Source: an uncultured Bacteroidales bacterium
GTDB taxonomy: Bacteria > Bacteroidota > Bacteroidia > Bacteroidales > P3
DNA length: 44,912 nt
Reading direction: 5' to 3'
Assembly (NCBI GenBank): GCA_900315935.1
Contig: ONBB01000014.1
Coordinates: 1 to 44,912, forward strand
Under the pieces are notes generated by a model that saw nothing but the letters and a program-made list of their open reading frames with translations, was not told the origin of the DNA and searched no databases. A program made the position numbers and the translations under genes. Shown here piece by piece: positions 1-44,912 of this stretch. Numbering within the stretch: position 1 is the stretch's first letter; the number at the start of each line of letters is the position of its first letter.

Positions 1-794
1 GGTGCCCAGCAAGGGCGTCAACCCCGACGAGGTGGTCGCCATCGGCGCCGCCATCCAGGGCGGTGTGCTCACCGGCGAGGTGAAGGACGTGCTGCTGCTC
101 GACGTAACTCCCTTGAGCCTCGGTATCGAGACCCTCGGCGGTGTGATGACCAAGCTCATCGACGCCAACACCACCATCCCCACCAAGAAGAGCCAGGTCT
201 TCAGCACCGCTGCCGACAACCAGCCCGAGGTGGAAATCCATGTGCTGCAGGGCGAGCGCCCCATGGCCAACGACAACAAGACCATCGGCCGCTTCCATCT
301 GGCCGGCATCCCGCCAGCACCGCGTGGAGTGCCCCAGATTGAGGTCACCTTCGACATCGACGCCAACGGCATCCTCAACGTCAGCGCCCTCGACAAGGCC
401 ACCGGCAAGAGCCAGAACATCCGCATCGAGGCCAGCAGCGGCCTGAGCGAGGACGAGATCAAGCGCATGAAGGCCGAAGCCGAGGCCCACGCCGACGCCG
501 ACAAGAAGGCCAAGGAAGAGGTGGAGAAGATCAACAACGCCGACGGCATGATCTTCCAGAGCGAGAAGAACCTGAAGGACTATGGCGACAAGATTCCCGC
601 CGACAAGAAGAACGCCATCGAGAGCGCCCTCAACGAGCTGAAAGCCGCCCACAGCGCCCGCAACGTCCAGCAGATCGACGCCGCCATGGCCAAGATCAAC
701 GCCGCCTGGCAGGCCGCCAGCGAGGACATGTACAAAGCCCAGCAACAACCCCAACGACAACGTCACCGACGTCGACTATGAGGAGGTGAAGTAA
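1..794 (+). CDS. dnaK: Chaperone DnaK (Hsp70), C-terminal part, frameshifted at its tail
   Basis: The reading frame is open from the left edge, so the N-terminal ATPase lobe lies outside the window. It begins in the end of the ATPase domain ([16 protein letters not shown]) and continues through the substrate-binding beta domain ([30 protein letters not shown]) and the helical lid. The main frame stops at 779-781 after a basic tail ([13 protein letters not shown]) that is foreign to the family. The family's acidic C-terminus ([16 protein letters not shown], stop 792-794) is intact in the next frame, starting near 741. The switch is therefore a 1-2 base indel in the low-complexity linker after MYKAQ, either an assembly error or a real frameshift. 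DnaK is the cytosolic ATP-dependent folding chaperone working with DnaJ and GrpE. Confidence 0.95.
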
Positions 795-39030: not shown

Positions 39031-39963
39031 ATGAAATATTCTATTGGAGTAGACATGGGCGGCACCAACACAGACCTCGGTCTGGTCTCCGCCAACGGCA
39101 ACATCGTTCAGCGTCGCAACCTGCCGACCAATGCCTATACGGATTTCAGCCTCTACATTCGCGACTTCATGCGCGAGGTGGATGCCATGCTGGCCGACCA
39201 GCAGGCCATCGACGGCGAGCCCCTCACCCTCGAGGGCATTGGCGTCGGCGCCCCCAACGGCAACTTCTACACCGGCTGCGTCGACAACGCCCCCAACCTC
39301 ACCATGAAGGGCGTGCTCGACTTCGGCAAGGAAATCCACAAGTACCGCGATGTGCCCGTCGTCCTCTCCAACGATGCCAACGCCGCCGCTTACGGCGAGT
39401 ATGTCTACGGCGGCGCCAAGGGCATGAAGCATTTCATCATGTTCACCCTCGGCACCGGCGTGGGCAGCGGTGTTGTGGTCGACGGCCGTTTGGTCCACGG
39501 CTCCACCGGTGCTGCCGGCGAGCTCGGCCACGCCATCCTCTATCAGCACGGACGTCCCTGCTCCTGCGGCCGCGAAGGCTGCCTTGAGACTTACACTTCC
39601 GCCCGCGGTATCGTGCAAACCTACTGCGAGTTGAAGGGCATTCCTGTGAGTGCCGACGTTACCAGCAAGATGATTGGCGAGCTGGCCCACCAGGGCGACC
39701 CCGTGGCCCTCAAGACTTGGGAGACCGTAGGCGACCAGCTGGGTCTGGCCATGGCCAACGCTGTTACCTTCTCGGCTCCCGAGGCGCTCTTCCTCATGGG
39801 CGGCCCCGCCCAGGTGGGCGAGCCCCTGCTGAAGCCCCTGCGTGCCGCCTTCGAGAAGTACCTGCTCAACATCTTCGCCGGCACCTGCCAGATTCGCATG
39901 TCCGAGCTCAAGGCCAACGAGGTGGCCATCCTCGGCGCCGCAGCATTATTGAAAATGAAATAA
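39031..39963 (+). CDS. ROK-family sugar kinase (glucokinase-like)
   Basis: A 310-aa cytosolic kinase. ATP-binding GVDMGGTNTDLGLV opens it; the sugar-site NDANAAAYGE and TLGTGVGSGVV are present; the ROK zinc site GRPCSCGREGCLETY follows EIGH-like ELGHAIL. It most likely phosphorylates glucose or a related hexose. Upstream of a GH92 mannosidase, so mannose is worth considering. Start 39031 is set by the promoter and the family N-terminus. Confidence 0.9.
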   Translation: MKYSIGVDMGGTNTDLGLVSANGNIVQRRNLPTNAYTDFSLYIRDFMREVDAMLADQQAIDGEPLTLEGIGVGAPNGNFYTGCVDNAPNLTMKGVLDFGKEIHKYRDVPVVLSNDANAAAYGEYVYGGAKGMKHFIMFTLGTGVGSGVVVDGRLVHGSTGAAGELGHAILYQHGRPCSCGREGCLETYTSARGIVQTYCELKGIPVSADVTSKMIGELAHQGDPVALKTWETVGDQLGLAMANAVTFSAPEALFLMGGPAQVGEPLLKPLRAAFEKYLLNIFAGTCQIRMSELKANEVAILGAAALLKMK

Positions 39964-39966
39964 TTG

Positions 39967-40059
39967 TAGGGACGCGGCGCGCCGCGTCCGCAGCAGAACG
40001 ATATGAAATACCACACCACACCAACCTATCACTTGCGGACATGGCACGCCATGTCCCTA
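39967..40059. repeat. REPIN-like pair of inverted 25-bp palindromes, copy 1
   Basis: Two 25-bp palindromes face each other: 39967-39991 and, reversed, 40035-40059. Both follow TAGGGAC-NN-RGC-NN-GCY-NN-GTCCGC. The variable pairs differ (GC/GC in one, AT/AT in the other) but remain self-complementary. The second lies inside the GH92 signal peptide coding region. Confidence 0.7.
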
Positions 40060-42681
40060 CTGGTCGCACTCCTTGCGGTTTCCTGCTCGGAAGGGTCGCT
40101 GACCACTTATGTCAACCCCCTGGTCGGCACCGACGGCCACGGCCACACCTTCCCCGGCGCCATCGTCCCCTTCGGCCAGATTCAGCCCTCGCCCGACACC
40201 CGCCTCGAGGGGTGGGACGGATGCAGCGGCTACCACTACAGCGACGACACCATCTATGGCTTCTCCCACACCCACCTCAGTGGCACCGGCTGCGAGGACT
40301 ACGGCGATGTGCTGCTGATGCCGTCGCGGATAAGTGACCCGGAAAATATTTGCAATGGACTTCCGTGCGATTTGAATGGCAGGGAGGACTATAAAAGCCA
40401 CTTTAGCCATGAGAACGAGGAGGCAAGGGCAGGATACTATAAGGTCCTGTTAGATAAGACGAATACTCTGGTTGAACTTACAGCAGACCGTCGGGTGGCC
40501 TATCATCGTTACACTTACGATGGAGATAAGAACAATGTTTTCGTTATAGATCTTCAACACCGAGATGTGTTGCTTGACGGTAGTATTAATTATGACATAA
40601 AAGATGGAATAATTGTTGGTCATCGCCATAGTTCGGCATGGAACCCCGACCAGCACCTGTTTTTCGCCATCTGCAGTGATGTCGATTTGTCCAATATTCA
40701 TTTCAATGATAAGCATACCTATGCTATTGTTTATCTGCCGGAAGGAGTAAAGACTCTTGAGTTGCAGGTGGCCATCAGCGGTGTGGATATCCAAGGCGCC
40801 ATCAATAACCTCAATGCTGCCGAGTATAAGGACTTTGACGCTGCCCGCCAGGGTGCCGACAGCACCTGGGAAGCTGCCCTCGGTAAGCTGAAAGTGGAAG
40901 GCGGCACCGACGAGCAGAAGCGCTGCTTCTACACAGCCCTCTACCACTGCATGACATCGCCCTATCTCTGGAGCGATGCCGACGGCCGCTACCGCGGTAC
41001 CGACAACGAGATACATACCGTTGACCCCGGCCGCGAGGTCTACACCGTCTTCTCCCTCTGGGACACCTACCGCGCCCTGCACCCCCTGCTCACCCAGATT
41101 GAGCCCGAGCGCACCGTCGACTTCGTCTACACCGCCATGAAGAACTTCGAGCAGGGCGGCGAGCTGCCCATGTGGGAGCTGGCCAGCCACGAGACCCACT
41201 GCATGATAGGCTACCACGCCGTGCCCATGATGCTCGAGGCTTACAAATACCTGGCCAGCGAGGACGGCACCCTGGCCGGCTACACGCCCAAGCAGATACT
41301 GGAGGCCATGGTGGCCACCAGCAACCGCACCCCCGAGCACCGCGCCTATGCCAAGCAGGGCTACCTCTCCTCCGAGGTGGACAATGAGAGCGTCAGCAAG
41401 ACCCTCGAATACGCCTACGACGACTGGTGCATCGCCCAGATGGCCCGCATCGCCGGCGACACCGCCCGCGAGCGCGAGTACTGGATTCGCAGCCAGTCGT
41501 GGCAGAACGTGATGGACACCAACGGCTTCATGCACCCGCGCCGCAACGGTGCCTTCCTCACACCCTTCGACCCCACCGAGGTCAACAACCACTACACCGA
41601 GGCCAACTCGTGGCAGTACAGCACCTATGTGCCGCACGACATCGACGCCTGGGTGGAACGCCTCGGCGGTGCCGACCGTGCCGAAGCCTTCCTCGATAGC
41701 CTCTTCGAGGGGCGCAACAGCCTCTCCGGCCGCGACCAGGCCGACGTAACCGGCCTCATCGGCATGTACGCCCACGGCAACGAGCCCTCGCACCATGCCG
41801 CATGGCTCTACTCCCTCCTCGGCCAGCCCGAGAAGACCGAGCGTTATGTGCACAAGATACTTAACGAACTCTACACCAGCGCCCCCGACGGCCTCTGCGG
41901 CAACGAGGACTGCGGTCAGATGAGTGCCTGGTATGTCCTCTGTGCCCTCGGCATGTATGAGGTCTGCCCCGGCAGCGGCATCTGGCTGCGCACCGAGCCC
42001 ATCTTCAAGAACGACCTCGACTGGGCCCTGGCCTCCGACCCGCAGGGCGAGCCTCTCTGCTGCCCCGGCGAGTACCGCATCACGCCCTGCCCCGCCTTCC
42101 CCGACTGGCGCATGCAGAGCACCCGCGACCACGTCAGCGACACCTCCGCCCGGTGGGAGGGACGGCTGCCCTCGCAAATTGTGCGCCACACTGAGGTGCG
42201 CACCTCCACCGACAAGCACGTTACCTACCTCACCCAGCCCGCACCGCAGTACACCGAGAACGGCCCCGAGGGCATGGTGGACAACATCTTCGCCTCCACC
42301 AACTACCGCATCGGCGGCTGGCAGGGCTGGCAGGAGGACATGGTGGCCGTGGTCGAGCTCGACCAGGAGCAGACCGTCCGCCACGTGGCCCTCAACTGCC
42401 TGGAAAACATGCGCTCATGGATTTTTTTTCCCATCAATGTCAAGATGGAGACCAGCCTCGACGGCAAGACGTGGAAAACCTTCGGCGAGGTGAGTACCAC
42501 CCAGTTCCCCACCGAGCACTACCGCCAGGAGGAGTCCGTAACGCACACCTTCTGTGCCGACGGTGCCACGCGCGCCAAGTACGTCAAAATCACCGCCACC
42601 AACTTCGGCGCCCTGCCCGACTGGCACGTCAGTGCCGGACAGCAGGCATGGCTCTTCGCCGACGAGATAATCATTAAATAA
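40003..42681 (+). CDS. GH92 alpha-1,2-mannosidase, lipoprotein
   Basis: An 892-aa GH92 enzyme, a calcium-dependent exo-mannosidase acting on alpha-mannans or N-glycans. N-terminal domain: YVNPLVGTDGHGHTFPGAIVPFGQIQPSPDT, SHTHLSGTGC. Catalytic (alpha/alpha)6 domain: GGELPMWELASHETHCMIGYH, LEYAYDDWCIAQMA, GNEPSHHAAWLY, GNEDCGQMSAWYVLCALGMYEVCPG. A C-terminal discoidin-like module follows (about 740-892). The signal/lipobox (SLLVALLAVSC) begins inside a mobile palindrome. Codons 110-270 or so (about 40330-40800) are much AT-richer than the rest. An alternative start is 40051. Confidence 0.93.
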   Translation: MKYHTTPTYHLRTWHAMSLLVALLAVSCSEGSLTTYVNPLVGTDGHGHTFPGAIVPFGQIQPSPDTRLEGWDGCSGYHYSDDTIYGFSHTHLSGTGCEDYGDVLLMPSRISDPENICNGLPCDLNGREDYKSHFSHENEEARAGYYKVLLDKTNTLVELTADRRVAYHRYTYDGDKNNVFVIDLQHRDVLLDGSINYDIKDGIIVGHRHSSAWNPDQHLFFAICSDVDLSNIHFNDKHTYAIVYLPEGVKTLELQVAISGVDIQGAINNLNAAEYKDFDAARQGADSTWEAALGKLKVEGGTDEQKRCFYTALYHCMTSPYLWSDADGRYRGTDNEIHTVDPGREVYTVFSLWDTYRALHPLLTQIEPERTVDFVYTAMKNFEQGGELPMWELASHETHCMIGYHAVPMMLEAYKYLASEDGTLAGYTPKQILEAMVATSNRTPEHRAYAKQGYLSSEVDNESVSKTLEYAYDDWCIAQMARIAGDTAREREYWIRSQSWQNVMDTNGFMHPRRNGAFLTPFDPTEVNNHYTEANSWQYSTYVPHDIDAWVERLGGADRAEAFLDSLFEGRNSLSGRDQADVTGLIGMYAHGNEPSHHAAWLYSLLGQPEKTERYVHKILNELYTSAPDGLCGNEDCGQMSAWYVLCALGMYEVCPGSGIWLRTEPIFKNDLDWALASDPQGEPLCCPGEYRITPCPAFPDWRMQSTRDHVSDTSARWEGRLPSQIVRHTEVRTSTDKHVTYLTQPAPQYTENGPEGMVDNIFASTNYRIGGWQGWQEDMVAVVELDQEQTVRHVALNCLENMRSWIFFPINVKMETSLDGKTWKTFGEVSTTQFPTEHYRQEESVTHTFCADGATRAKYVKITATNFGALPDWHVSAGQQAWLFADEIIIK

Positions 42682-42692
42682 ATGCTAACGAT

Positions 42693-42923
42693 ATGAAAAA
42701 GACCGCAAAAATGCTGACCGCCGCCAGTCTGGTGCTGGCCGCCTTCGCCCTCGCCTCGTGCGACAGCAAGCTCTGCTACTGCTATGAGGCCACCTCCGCC
42801 GGCGTCCACGAGCAGGAGGCATACACCAACACCGACACCCCCTGCGGAGCCCTCACCAACACGCGCCGCACCTGTGTCGAAAGCAACGAGCGCATGAACC
42901 CCGAGGACATCGCCTGGAAGTAA
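42693..42923 (+). CDS. Small cysteine-rich lipoprotein (76 aa)
   Basis: Lipoprotein signal (MLTAASLVLAAFALASC), then a short mature part with Cys residues in LCYCYEATSAG, PCGAL and RRTCVES. No family recognised. Starts 11 bases after GH92 and ends 11 bases before the SGNH-like gene, so it is likely in the same transcript. The paired cysteines suggest a compact disulfide-bonded surface peptide. Confidence 0.75.
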   Translation: MKKTAKMLTAASLVLAAFALASCDSKLCYCYEATSAGVHEQEAYTNTDTPCGALTNTRRTCVESNERMNPEDIAWK

Positions 42924-42934
42924 CCCCACCGGCA

Positions 42935-43873
42935 ATGAAGTATTCCGCAGGTGGTCCTCACCACTTCCTTCGCGATGTGGCCGTTGTCTTCGTCGTGGGT
43001 GTGCTCTTCTTTGTTCTGCCCGTCGAGTTGCTTGCCTACAGGGCGCAGAACAACTTCCTCTGGAAGCGCCAGCACCTGGAGGCCAACCTCGGCTCCATCT
43101 CCACCCTGCTGCTCGGCAACAGCTTTTTCGAGCTCTCGTTCAACAACCATGTCCTCGGCGACAGTTCATTCAATGTATCGCAGATGGGACGGCAGATTTA
43201 TTACGACGTTGAAATTGCCCGGCGCTACATCCCCCGGATGCCCAACCTGCGCACCGTCATCTACCCGATTGCTGTTGGCGGACTCTCGGTCGGCGGCAGC
43301 GACCTCAACTCCGGCGTGGAATACGCCAAGTCGTGGCATATCCCTTGTCGCACATTCCCGCAGAATATCCTTTGCCACTCCCAACTCCTCTCTGGGCGTT
43401 TCTGTCTCAAGAACTACCTTCCCGACATCCGCTGCGACTCCCTTGGCTACCAAGCCCTCTCCGGCGTATGGAAGGGCGAGATAGTCGCAGGTTACGACCG
43501 GCCTACCCTAAACCATAAAAGCGCAGTGGAAGGATTCATCATCTACCTCACCCGCCTGGCGCGCATCTGCAGCGAGAACGGTGTCCGCTTCATCGCCATC
43601 ACCCCGCCGCAAACCAACCTATATGTCGACTGGACGCCCGAGGCCAATTACGATGACCTGAGCCGTGTCGTTCAGACTGTCCAGGCCGCCTACCCTATGG
43701 AGTACCACGACTATTCCAGGGATGCCGAGTTCCGTAACAACTCCCTCTTCTACGACCCTGTCCATCTCACTCATGTCGGTGCCACCCGCCTGGCTGAACG
43801 TGTGGCAGAAGACTTCAACTTATCGGTAGACCATCCCTACATCGCCCACGAAAAGTGGCTGACAGCGGATTGA
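42935..43873 (+). CDS. Membrane-anchored SGNH-like protein
   Basis: A 312-aa protein with one N-terminal membrane helix (DVAVVFVVGVLFFVLPVELLAY) and an extracytoplasmic domain resembling SGNH/DltD-AlgX type folds: LLLGNSFFELSFNN (block I, nucleophile region), FIAITPPQTN, and a late DPVHLTHVGATRLAERV (Asp-x-x-His). These proteins often add or remove acyl groups on surface glycans. Here the nucleophile block reads GNSFF, close to GxS. Function inferred from motifs only. The 3' end overlaps the convergent DUF6266 gene by 54 bases. Confidence 0.7.
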   Translation: MKYSAGGPHHFLRDVAVVFVVGVLFFVLPVELLAYRAQNNFLWKRQHLEANLGSISTLLLGNSFFELSFNNHVLGDSSFNVSQMGRQIYYDVEIARRYIPRMPNLRTVIYPIAVGGLSVGGSDLNSGVEYAKSWHIPCRTFPQNILCHSQLLSGRFCLKNYLPDIRCDSLGYQALSGVWKGEIVAGYDRPTLNHKSAVEGFIIYLTRLARICSENGVRFIAITPPQTNLYVDWTPEANYDDLSRVVQTVQAAYPMEYHDYSRDAEFRNNSLFYDPVHLTHVGATRLAERVAEDFNLSVDHPYIAHEKWLTAD

Positions 43874-44912
43874 ACTAGCATTTTCGACCTTCGGTGCTTC
43901 ATTGCAGGGTGTAGAATGTATCTCTTCTGGCTGGTTGTCGTTGGTGCAATCGGTTGATACCGTGGCGTCTGATATCTTGATGTAGGTCGACATGCTGGCG
44001 TGTCCCCCTGAGTCCACCACGAAGCCCCACATCTTGGTATTTAGATGGTTCCAGCCGTCGGGCAGCTGCAGCTGCAACTTGCCGTGCCGCCGCTCGGCAG
44101 GGTGGGAGAGGAGACCTTCGCGCGTATCACTATTATATACATAGACATACACGCGGTCGCTCCCCTTGGCGCGGCTCATGCCGCTATTCTTCTCGAAATC
44201 AACGCGTAGCACCCCGCAGTCGCTGATTTCAGCGGCCGTAAACCGCACGGGTGCAGCCGAGCCTTCGGATATGCGAATGCGCTCATACTCTGTAGGGACG
44301 CAGCGCGCTGCGTCCGCAGCCGCCCCGTGGGCGGGAATGTCCGCAACCGCACTGCGGTCGGAAGTGTCCGCAATCGCACTGCGGTCGGAAAAGTCCGCAA
44401 TCGTCCCGCGGGCGGGAATGCCGGCTGGCGCATTGCGGTCCGGAATGCCGGCTGGCGCTTTGCGGACGCGGCACGCCGCGTCCCTACATTTCAACTCCCC
44501 CTCTAAGCTAGAGGGGGTGCCCGAAGGGCGGGGGCGTGTGGCCTTGGATCCATACTCTCCTCCGTCCTGCAACACACTCCTCCGCCCTTCGGGCACCTCC
44601 CCTAACTTAGGGGAGGAGTTCGGTTGCAGACATTTCAACTCCCCCTCTAAGTTAGAGGGGGTGGCGCCGCCGCAGGCGGCGACGGGGGCGTGTGTGCGGC
44701 CGAAGCAGTGCTTGTTCATCTTGACGAAAGCGTTGCCCTCGGTCATCTGGTCGCGGGCGGCACGCTCGCGCAAGCCCAACAGCAGCGCCTGCCGCGCCGT
44801 GGCCGCGAAGCGTACCATCGACACAAACCAGTCTCTTTCAGCCTGTTGGTTCTCCGTATTCGGATAGTTTATCTCCTTGCGGTAGCCGCGCACCACGTGG
44901 CGCCCGCGCCAC
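43820..44912 (-). CDS. DUF6266-family protein, interrupted by repeat insertions; start outside window
   Basis: The 5' end is cut by the window edge. Its first visible part (AERDWFVSMVRFAATARQALLLGLRERAARDQMTEGNAFVKMN) and later part (YERIRISEGSAAPVRFTAAEISDCGVLRVDFEKNSG, SDRVYVYVYNSDTREGLL) match the DUF6266 protein at 10613. Between them about 140 codons come from repeats: CCCCCTCTAA-type hairpins, a REPIN-like pair and five 27-bp tandem units, all kept in frame. The protein may still fold with a disordered insert or may be a decaying gene. Role of DUF6266 unknown. Confidence 0.7.
   Translation of the reverse strand, partial: WRGRHVVRGYRKEINYPNTENQQAERDWFVSMVRFAATARQALLLGLRERAARDQMTEGNAFVKMNKHCFGRTHAPVAACGGATPSNLEGELKCLQPNSSPKLGEVPEGRRSVLQDGGEYGSKATRPRPSGTPSSLEGELKCRDAACRVRKAPAGIPDRNAPAGIPARGTIADFSDRSAIADTSDRSAVADIPAHGAAADAARCVPTEYERIRISEGSAAPVRFTAAEISDCGVLRVDFEKNSGMSRAKGSDRVYVYVYNSDTREGLLSHPAERRHGKLQLQLPDGWNHLNTKMWGFVVDSGGHASMSTYIKISDATVSTDCTNDNQPEEIHSTPCNEAPKVENASSIRCQPLFVGDVGMVYR
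44293..44486. repeat. REPIN-like pair of inverted 25-bp palindromes, copy 2
   Basis: Palindromes at 44293-44317 and, reversed, 44462-44486, same consensus and orientation as 39967-40059. The 144 bases between them hold five tandem units of about 27 bp built around GTCCGC and GCGGTC, encoding nine-residue repeats such as AIADTSDRS on the minus strand. Confidence 0.7.
44488..44695. repeat. Cluster of CCCCCTCTAAG hairpin repeats
   Basis: Three related units: 44488-44540 and 44632-44695 in direct orientation, and an inverted variant at about 44575-44630. Each carries a CCCCCTCTAA/TTAGAGGGGG-type hairpin and a GGGCG-rich tail. They interrupt the DUF6266 gene in frame. Confidence 0.65.

Follow-up and report, generated by a model that had tools for sequence, protein, structure and literature searches.

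The described systems closest to the elements analyzed here are the GTAG-tagged REPs and REPINs of Pseudomonas and E. coli, which share with them the GTAG at the hairpin foot, a preferred distance between the two members of an inverted doublet, stems that covary and a cognate RAYT nearby (PMC3116915, PMC3733652, PMC8266576). Most REPs are placed in intergenic space by PMC3733652, and in P. fluorescens SBW25 14 of 1,067 REP 16-mers overlap genes (PMC3116915). The GTAG repeats of PMC3733652 come from Proteobacteria, Cyanobacteria, Chloroflexi and PVC, Bacteroidetes not being among the groups named in that survey, which also describes in-frame REP dimers, proposed to lie in loops or linkers, in O. 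terrae and others, an arrangement comparable to the one reported below. The RAYTs of subclass 2.4 (Bertels group 4) have been recorded from Bacteroidetes (Quentin et al. 2018, PMC6006769) and resemble those discussed here in their NHxH, WQ and YIxNN motifs, in the REPs in frame between HuH and Y, and in a patchy distribution over Bacteroidetes and other phyla. The sections of that study at hand describe REPs in or near the RAYT gene, with no population residing mainly inside other genes and no single REP that reaches high copy numbers in both Bacteroidota and Firmicutes. Rickettsia palindromic elements are likewise short palindromes that code in frame inside conserved genes, but they are CGTC-tagged, and CGTC repeats apparently have no dedicated transposase (PMC3733652).

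The window analyzed here is a stretch of 44,912 nt from an uncultured Bacteroidales bacterium, and it was compared with the rest of its own 2.29 Mb genome (G000) and with the same-genus genomes G070, G083, G108 and G110. We conclude, with a probability of roughly 0.85, that its four palindromes are REPs bearing a GTAG tag, that they make up two REPINs, and that these non-autonomous elements belong to a RAYT (TnpA-REP) of the subclass 2.4 type. A sequence-only reading of this DNA had pointed to REPINs of gammaproteobacteria and considered a Bacteroidales version notable; the assignment to the REPIN type stands, but the known range of REPs and RAYTs is much wider than that group (PMC6006769).

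The palindromes and their copies in the genus

The four 25-bp palindromes form two inverted pairs, 39967-39991 (+) with 40035-40059 (-) and 44293-44317 (+) with 44462-44486 (-), exactly where the sequence-only reading had placed them, and their presence in the window is confirmed. When the G preceding each palindrome is included, all four read GTAG-GGAC... (Table 1). REP 1 starts 2 nt past a TAA at 39961-39963, which by eye is the stop codon of the upstream gene. Each palindrome folds alone into an 8-bp stem with a 4-nt loop at -7.7 to -10.4 kcal/mol, equalled by 1 to 7 of 200 shuffles, while the REPIN 1 pair with its spacer forms one long hairpin (-20.2, z -3.1, 0 of 200 shuffles).

Table 1. 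Features of the window and REPIN-derived inserts lying between two Pfam domains
Feature	Position (window nt, or insert in protein)	Strand	Remarks
REP 1	39966..39991	+	GTAG + hairpin + GC; left arm of REPIN 1
REPIN 1 spacer	39992..40034	+	43 nt
REP 2	40035..40060	-	right arm of REPIN 1
GH92 glycosidase gene	40003..42681	+	PF17678, PF07971; REP 2 in signal-peptide region
DUF6266 gene	43823..44912	-	PF19781; REPIN 2 in frame (locus L026, offset 42792)
REP 3	44292..44317	+	arm of REPIN 2; in frame in minus-strand DUF6266 gene
REPIN 2 spacer	44318..44461	-	144 nt; 27-bp (9-codon) tandem units
REP 4	44462..44487	-	other arm of REPIN 2
Different palindromic repeat, CTCCCCCTCTAAGTTAGAGGGGG type	44493..44663		adjoins REPIN 2
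NqrA	insert 95-118		between NQRA_N 6-96 and NQRA_2nd 113-; touches both ends
HydF	insert 124-149		between two domains (Pfam scan)
RlmN	insert 90-115		between two domains (Pfam scan)
RadA	insert 43-52		between two domains (Pfam scan)
Fer4_20 protein	insert 292-316		between two domains (Pfam scan)

The window's own genome contains 28 exact matches to the palindrome, 13 forward and 15 reverse, against none for a control pattern, which rules out chance palindromes; copy numbers in G000, G083, G108 and G110 range from 28 to 31. Among 81 clusters in five genomes, found by pattern so that decayed copies are under-counted, 45 are simple +- pairs with GTAG outward, 27 consist of one palindrome and the remaining 9 form other arrays, and 15 of the 35 short +- pairs have a spacer of 19-20 nt. 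The palindrome is thus repeated many times, its GTAG directly adjoins the foot of the hairpin, and the spacing within its inverted doublets is preferred. The sequence-only reading had named mostly single palindromes, together with a lack of Y1 transposases in the genome or its relatives, as evidence that would speak against REPINs; neither was found, given the number of paired clusters and the Y1 transposases detected in the window's genome and its relatives.

The same reading had noted that inner base pairs change together, and this extends across 146 copies from five genomes: pair 8-19 is GC in 91, AT in 50 and otherwise constituted in 5, pair 9-18 is CG in 119, TA in 10, GC in 7 and other in 10, and pair 10-17 is GC in 110, AT in 31 and other in 5. 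Over all 45 distinct REP types, 94.8% of the pairing cells are paired against 88.6% after shuffling (0/500), and 34 cells are changed on both sides against 9.7 (0/500), a measure that reaches at most 4 in slid structures. Two weaker measures are unexceptional, namely the pairs with a double change (4 vs 2.6; 65/500) and the further pair types (12 vs 10.4; 53/500). On the whole, three of five measures lie beyond all 500 shuffles and two do not, and since the copies are related, the stem changes are not independent events. A hand-chosen set of 34 of the 45 types had given 94.4% pairing and 26 double-change cells; the full count supersedes it.

Residence of the REPINs in genes

REPIN 1 spans the start of the GH92 lipoprotein gene. 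An ATG AAA at 40003, inside its spacer, begins the longer reading frame, an ATG at 40051 within REP 2 offers an alternative start, and REP 2 itself encodes RTWHAMSL in that frame, in the signal-peptide region; the placement of REP 2 in this region is repeated in G083 (L131/L441). REPIN 2 is a resident of the DUF6266 gene family holding an in-frame array of 27-bp repeats, and the 5' end of its host gene may lie beyond the contig end. In nine copies from G000 and G083 the spacer measures 36+27n nt (36, 63, 90, 90, 117 in four copies, and 144), two further copies of this type having spacers of 57 and 60 nt. The pair at 44293/44462 is one of seven copies of the DUF6266 gene family in the window's genome, so that an independent insertion was rejected for it.

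In that genome 13 of the 17 clusters lie in frame inside genes, a count that combines codon-usage calls with the seven DUF6266 copies, which were counted from their open frame and from Pfam matches of one copy from G000 and one from G083; by codon usage alone, under which those seven are classed as having one side coding, 6 of the 16 classed clusters are in frame. Among the clusters with coding flanks on the same strand, 42 of 51 are read through in frame and the other 9 proved on reading to be gene borders, and none of the 51 shifts the frame of a gene. Of the 87 clusters classed across all groups, 22 have one side coding and 9 have no coding side; 6 further clusters lie at contig edges. The in-frame residence of most clusters in the window's genome differs from the intergenic preference in SBW25 cited above, and an extragenic location, though part of the REP name, does not hold for most clusters of this genome; because PMC3733652 accepts intragenic REPs, we do not treat this as excluding the class. 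The mostly coding location had gone unnoticed in the sequence-only reading.

A Pfam scan of 20 proteins placed the insert between two domains in 5 (Table 1) and within a domain match in 6. The places in which elements were seen are interdomain linkers, loop-like positions within domains, termini and signal peptides. One empty site, with a net difference of +27 nt, was recognized close to the C-terminal end of a gene judged by eye to be NqrB-like. Variation of the loop itself keeps most comparisons of filled and empty sites from being clean; RibD and NqrA were rejected as clean empty sites, since the length of their loops is variable and coding repeats of other kinds are present in them. A structure model of NqrA had a mean pLDDT of 39.6 and was left unused. 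No rule that the lengths of in-frame REPINs be multiples of three was visible by eye in the spacers. Within the genus, inserts would probably persist where the reading frame is kept, frame-breaking inserts being lost by selection.

RAYT genes and the distribution of the repeat

In G070 a RAYT gene carries the same palindrome just upstream, a REPIN in frame inside and another REPIN just after its stop codon, which supports the REPIN interpretation of the sequence-only reading. Its score against NCBIfam REP_Tyr_transpos is 42.6 bits, against a cut-off of 80. Its motifs are NHIH, WQ and YIENNV, the V replacing the P of YIxNNP, and the NHxH, WQ and YI motifs are invariant in five aligned RAYTs; with cognate REPs in frame between HuH and Y, these are the features of subclass 2.4. 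The RAYT tree comprised solely RAYTs found in this analysis. The complex of TnpA-REP with its hairpin (4er8) is the sole sequence-profile match of the RAYT in the PDB and also the best fold match of its predicted structure, with modest TM-scores of 0.46/0.50, similar to those that the IS608 and ISDra2 transposases give against the model, in which pLDDT is <50 for residues 88-96 and 99-110 of the stretch coded by the REPIN. By analogy with what has been published for other RAYTs, this HuH/Y1 nuclease, acting on single strands, would bind the GTAG-hairpin and disperse the REPIN to further sites.

A RAYT with this palindrome in its flanks, which the sequence-only reading had proposed to look for, is present in G070 and in other gut bacteria, but none was found in the window's own genome. 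There, the ~1.5 kb scanned around RAYT/Y1 matches lacked this palindrome with one exception, a contig-1 RAYT carrying another REP, which lies ~1.05 kb from a DUF6266 copy of the REPIN. No cognate RAYT was found in the copy-rich genomes G000, G083, G108 and G110, nor did this REP adjoin the weaker RAYT-like matches scanned in them, an absence that is weak evidence because draft genomes are broken at repeats. The IS200-like TnpAs of the genome were rejected as movers, being flanked by GCCCC..GGGGC repeats.

A tighter pattern matched 13 of 190 genomes of the family, the control matching none, and the REP was absent from all 70 sister-genus genomes. Among the cross-phylum matches listed, it is multicopy (2-36) in 20 genomes, including Ruminococcaceae, which were hand-picked and so hold at least one copy each by construction; in 10 of these 20 a RAYT frame either contains the TAGGGAC...GTCC palindrome or has it no more than 300 nt away.

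Alternative origins and wider implications

That the copies are relics of an ancestral RAYT-driven spread, persisting by descent, recombination and DUF6266 duplication after loss of the RAYT, has in our view somewhat less than an even chance; this shares its origin with the explanation preferred here and differs on present activity. It accords with the failure to find a cognate RAYT in the four copy-rich genomes, with the many sites common to different species and with the DUF6266 copies being duplicates. Decay is not what seven shared sites display, their arms being identical at 273 of 275 positions and their flanks at 2287 of 2729 (hand sums omitting L012/L043 and BaiN), though the choice of loci by pattern favours intact arms and qualifies this argument. 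At BaiN, where the flanks of G000 and G083 are 96-98% identical, comparison with G110 finds partly decayed arms only 70-72% alike, which counts against strict arm conservation. The second beta-mannosidase site, filled in G110 and unfilled in its relative G108, speaks against the relic explanation. Movement in trans by a different RAYT of the same genome is unlikely: candidates exist, such as the contig-1 RAYT (G000:C1), with its proximity to a REPIN copy, and the C18 RAYT, which lies within a SpoU methylase gene, but RAYTs with a detected REP mostly carry their own different one (GTAGGGGCGAATC... in the case of C1), and the rule in the literature is that each REP family has a single RAYT (PMC6006769). 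Some RAYTs (L400, L411, L413) had no detected REP.

It is distinctly improbable that the hairpins are kept for a function in RNA or protein, as terminator, mRNA stability element, signal peptide or linker, and are not mobile DNA. The covarying stems, the near-identity of arms across species, the use of the REP's TAG as a gene stop codon in several places (judged by reading) and the fact that in two species REP 2 forms part of a signal peptide are compatible with such a role, but patchy presence, a link to RAYT genes, many unrelated host genes and variation in frame and strand are traits of mobile elements, and relatives manage without the insert. Membership in the Rickettsia palindromic elements or CGTC-type repeats, which code in frame without a dedicated transposase, has hardly any likelihood; residence in conserved genes is alike (PMC3733652), but the unpaired tag is GTAG and the same repeat is carried by RAYT genes, so that this class was rejected.

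Beyond the preferred identification as RAYT-dependent REPINs, we consider the odds about even for a broader picture in which protein-coding genes, not intergenic DNA, are the main REPIN habitat in the genus, REPINs settle in frame in insertion-tolerant linkers and loops shared by several repeat families that use them successively, and this REP has moved among Bacteroidota, Ruminococcaceae and Chloroflexi of gut and rumen, each lineage having its own spacer (mostly 19-22, 84-89, 93 or 110-114 nt). The genome studied here is a natural example of in-frame residence inside genes for the majority of copies, and the REP occurs at multiple copies in several phyla while being absent from sister genera. 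Two questions thereby become testable: whether RAYT systems spread between phyla, and whether proteins steadily gain new linker and loop peptides from mobile repeats.

Copies, pairing and fold of the palindrome

The window is contig 26 of a 31-contig, 2.29-Mb draft genome (G000), and the four palindromes located in it by the sequence-only reading were all found exactly as stated. Each of these units is predicted to fold as a hairpin in single-stranded DNA, and the first pair (REPIN 1) as one long hairpin. Including the preceding base, the unit is GTAG + GGAC-RYRGC-RY-GCYRY-GTCC + GC, and its inner stem pairs covary, in line with the earlier claim that these bases change together. The pattern TAGGGACN{6,20}GTCCGC has 28 exact matches in G000 versus 0 control matches, and is matched in 31 of the 120 genomes of the genus. 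Besides G000, G083 (31 copies), G108 (29), G110 (28) and G070 (6) are rich in copies, the remaining matching genomes having 1-2 each, about the level of the control column. A tighter pattern, with no control match in any genome, was recovered from 13 of the 190 genomes searched in the family, every one in the genus of the window, and was absent from all 70 genomes in 11 other genera.

The proposed REPIN-like inverted pairing is borne out in five genomes (G000, G070, G083, G108 and G110), where 45 of the 81 clusters are +- pairs with GTAG outward, alongside 27 single palindromes and 9 other arrays; the spacer is 19-20 nt in 15 of the 35 pairs with a spacer below 60 nt. Several G000 contigs (1, 4, 8, 9, 13 and 26) terminate within or close to these arrays, suggesting that the assembly was probably broken there and that the copy number is under-counted. 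By title or abstract, in a literature mostly without subscription papers, we found no report of this REP family, of a mainly intragenic REPIN population, or of one REP shared between phyla.

Coordinates of the repeats and transposase genes
Feature	Sequence	Positions	Strand
REPIN 1, left palindrome	window	39967-39991	+
REPIN 1, right palindrome (REP 2)	window	40035-40059	-
Second possible GH92 start, within REP 2	window	40051	
REPIN 2, left palindrome	window	44293-44317	+
REPIN 2, right palindrome	window	44462-44486	-
CTCCCCCTCTAAGTTAGAGGGGG palindromes adjoining REPIN 2	window	44493-44663	
Second G000 RAYT	L119 (G000 contig 1)	4095-4728	
RAYT within SpoU gene	L031 (G000 contig 18, ~11.2-12.5 kb)	742-2079	
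IS200-like transposase	L029	1483-1938	
IS200-like transposase	L030	1402-1857	
RAYT-like protein	L032 (G000 contig 29)	478-1893	

Residence in genes and conservation at shared sites

REPIN 1 lies directly past the stop of the upstream gene, which by eye appears ROK-like, and extends over the start of a GH92 gene. In most of the 30 homologous loci retrieved, the gene opens with a plain lipoprotein signal (e.g. MKR...LLFAACG); in G000 and G083 an ATGAAA falls inside the REPIN 1 spacer and REP 2 encodes RTWHAMSL immediately before the hydrophobic stretch. REPIN 2 lies within a minus-strand DUF6266 gene. Spacer length is 36+27n nt in nine of the DUF6266 copies of G000 and G083, where the spacer forms an in-frame array of 9-codon repeats, and 57 and 60 nt in two further copies. 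The CTCCCCCTCTAAGTTAGAGGGGG palindromes likewise occur in frame in DUF6266 paralogs.

A codon-usage model trained with the window sequence allowed 87 of 93 clusters to be classed (81 from the five genomes and 12 from genomes with 1-2 copies; of the latter, L040 and L060 represent a sister palindrome). Of these, 42 are in frame inside one gene (33 of 75 in the five genomes only), a figure that includes shared sites, such as five MenG-like copies, and corresponds by hand count to ~28 distinct sites. One coding side was seen in 22, no coding side in 9, genes on different strands in 5, same-strand neighbours in different frames in 6, and the same frame with a stop in 3. Translations of the last nine same-strand clusters place them at gene borders: L145 forms the final codons of one gene, and in L132 the upstream gene has the TAG of the REP as its stop codon. 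Of the 51 same-strand cases, 42 therefore read in frame within a gene, and none is a frameshift inside a gene.

In G000, 13 of 17 clusters are in frame in genes, comprising six single-gene sites (HI0933-like, HSP90, RibD, an NAD-binding/Fer4_20 protein, RlmN and NqrA) and seven DUF6266 copies; the latter, classed as "one side coding" because one flank consists of repeats, were counted on the basis of an open frame running across the element and of Pfam matches on L026 and L123. L012, at a contig edge, is probably a fourteenth. Among the others, two (L015 and REPIN 1) lie at gene starts and one (L021) between genes. When 20 insert-bearing proteins were scanned with Pfam, five had the insert between two domains (NqrA, HydF, RlmN, RadA, Fer4_20 protein) and six had it inside a domain match (HI0933-like, HSP90, RibD_C, Ubie, NamZ_C, aminotransferase); in the other nine it occupies a terminus or an unannotated region.

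At seven sites filled in two species the arms are identical at 273/275 positions versus 2287/2729 in the flanks (hand sums, one pair per site). The sample favours intact arms, as loci were identified by pattern, although that pattern left inner positions free. Both arm differences occur in NamZ (L140/L158), where they make up one compensatory pair (positions 8 and 19). The beta-mannosidase site has identical arms and unalike spacers, whereas the BaiN site runs against arm conservation, the G110 arms there being 70-72% similar to the G000 and G083 arms. The arm identity may reflect descent with selection, gene conversion or repeated insertion at the same site. In some loops the coding repeats differ by species (RibD and NqrA, and L177/L166 versus L137); as the repeats found in one and the same loop of RibD, NqrA and NqrB-like genes of relatives are unrelated, such loops look like docking sites used in common by several repeat families.

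Transposases linked to the repeats

A RAYT profile run over the 120 genomes uncovered a RAYT on contig 23 of G070, which holds 5 of the 6 palindrome copies of that genome. A REP end lies 19 nt before its ATG, one REPIN is in frame within the gene, and a second REPIN starts 4 nt past the stop. The anticipated RAYT flanked by the same palindrome is thus present in G070; the palindrome is near none of the four PF01797 matches of G000 (~1.5 kb scanned). The protein has NHIH, WQ and YIENN motifs, and TnpA-REP 4er8 is both its single PDB sequence match by profile and the best fold match of its model (TM-scores 0.46/0.50; mean pLDDT 76.7), with pLDDT below 50 in the REPIN-coded residues 88-96 and 99-110. 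No RAYT close to it was found in G000, G083, G108 and G110. Of seven RAYT-like profile matches scanned there with 0.5 to several kb of flank, only two have a REPIN copy in the same stretch, both inside a DUF6266 gene, at ~1.05 kb (G000 contig 1) and 4.4 kb (G083 contig 4).

RAYTs of G062, G046, G090, G003 and G000 contig 1 each have their own, different REPs inside the gene. Quentin et al. (PMC6006769) give in-frame REPs within the RAYT gene as a feature unique to subclass 2.4, for which they also note a patchy spread over phyla; the G070 RAYT and the five listed here fit that subclass.

Other transposases were also observed. The second G000 RAYT has its own REP family, GTAGGGGCGAATCATCATTCGCCCC, within and around it. 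On G000 contig 18 a RAYT (NF047646, 67 bits) is in frame within a SpoU RNA methylase gene, with in-frame copies of another repeat (GTACGCAGGCGTCCCGCCTGCATG) on both flanks, and a single open frame spans transposon and host gene. Two 151-aa IS200-like transposases are flanked by GCCCC..GGGGC repeats, and their YIQNQESHH / YIRSQGEHH near the C-terminus resembles the subclass 1.2 motif of PMC6006769. A 471-aa RAYT-like protein combines a glycine-rich, collagen-like insert with a long C-terminal extension.

Distribution across phyla and host lineages

A scan of GTDB genomes with an exact 26-base pattern matched at least 111 stretches against a chance expectation below 1 (own estimate, 44 bits versus ~5e11 positions). 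Twenty genomes hand-picked from the matches listed, each thereby holding at least one copy, have 2-36 copies and no control matches. Two MAGs labelled Ruminococcus and Ruminococcaceae contain 36 and 32, Oscillospiraceae SIG618 has 26, a Prevotellaceae MAG 30 and an Anaerolineae MAG 7. The GC of the Ruminococcus-labelled loci, mostly 0.40-0.48 versus 0.58-0.61 in the genus of the window, speaks against binning errors. Spacers are lineage-specific. A RAYT match was obtained in 17 of the 20, and in 10 of them a RAYT frame has a TAGGGAC...GTCC palindrome in it or no more than 300 nt away, some deviating by a different middle (L407, L393 inside the gene) or one mismatch (L390). In a 29-protein tree, RAYTs with such a palindrome fall into supported Bacteroidota (99/98) and Firmicutes (100/98) clades and two others; the REP label requires 4 changes versus 9 in shuffles, on a tree with 12 of 26 inner branches weak. 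The alternatives are that the REP is old within this group of RAYTs, with loss in most lineages, or that it travels from phylum to phylum; that the 70 sister-genus genomes lack it favours travel, short of proof.

Twenty stretches from Ruminococcaceae UBA7147 and Oscillospiraceae SIG618, covering part of the copies in these genomes, hold 28 clusters, 19 of which are crossed by no open frame above 150 aa. Among the remaining nine, the frame runs into masked N in five, and in two the cluster sits at the extreme end of the frame. In P. fluorescens SBW25, according to PMC3116915, only 14 of 1,067 REP 16-mers overlap genes, as against the 13 of 17 G000 clusters in frame. Gene residence thus looks like a trait of the host lineage of the window and not of the repeat.
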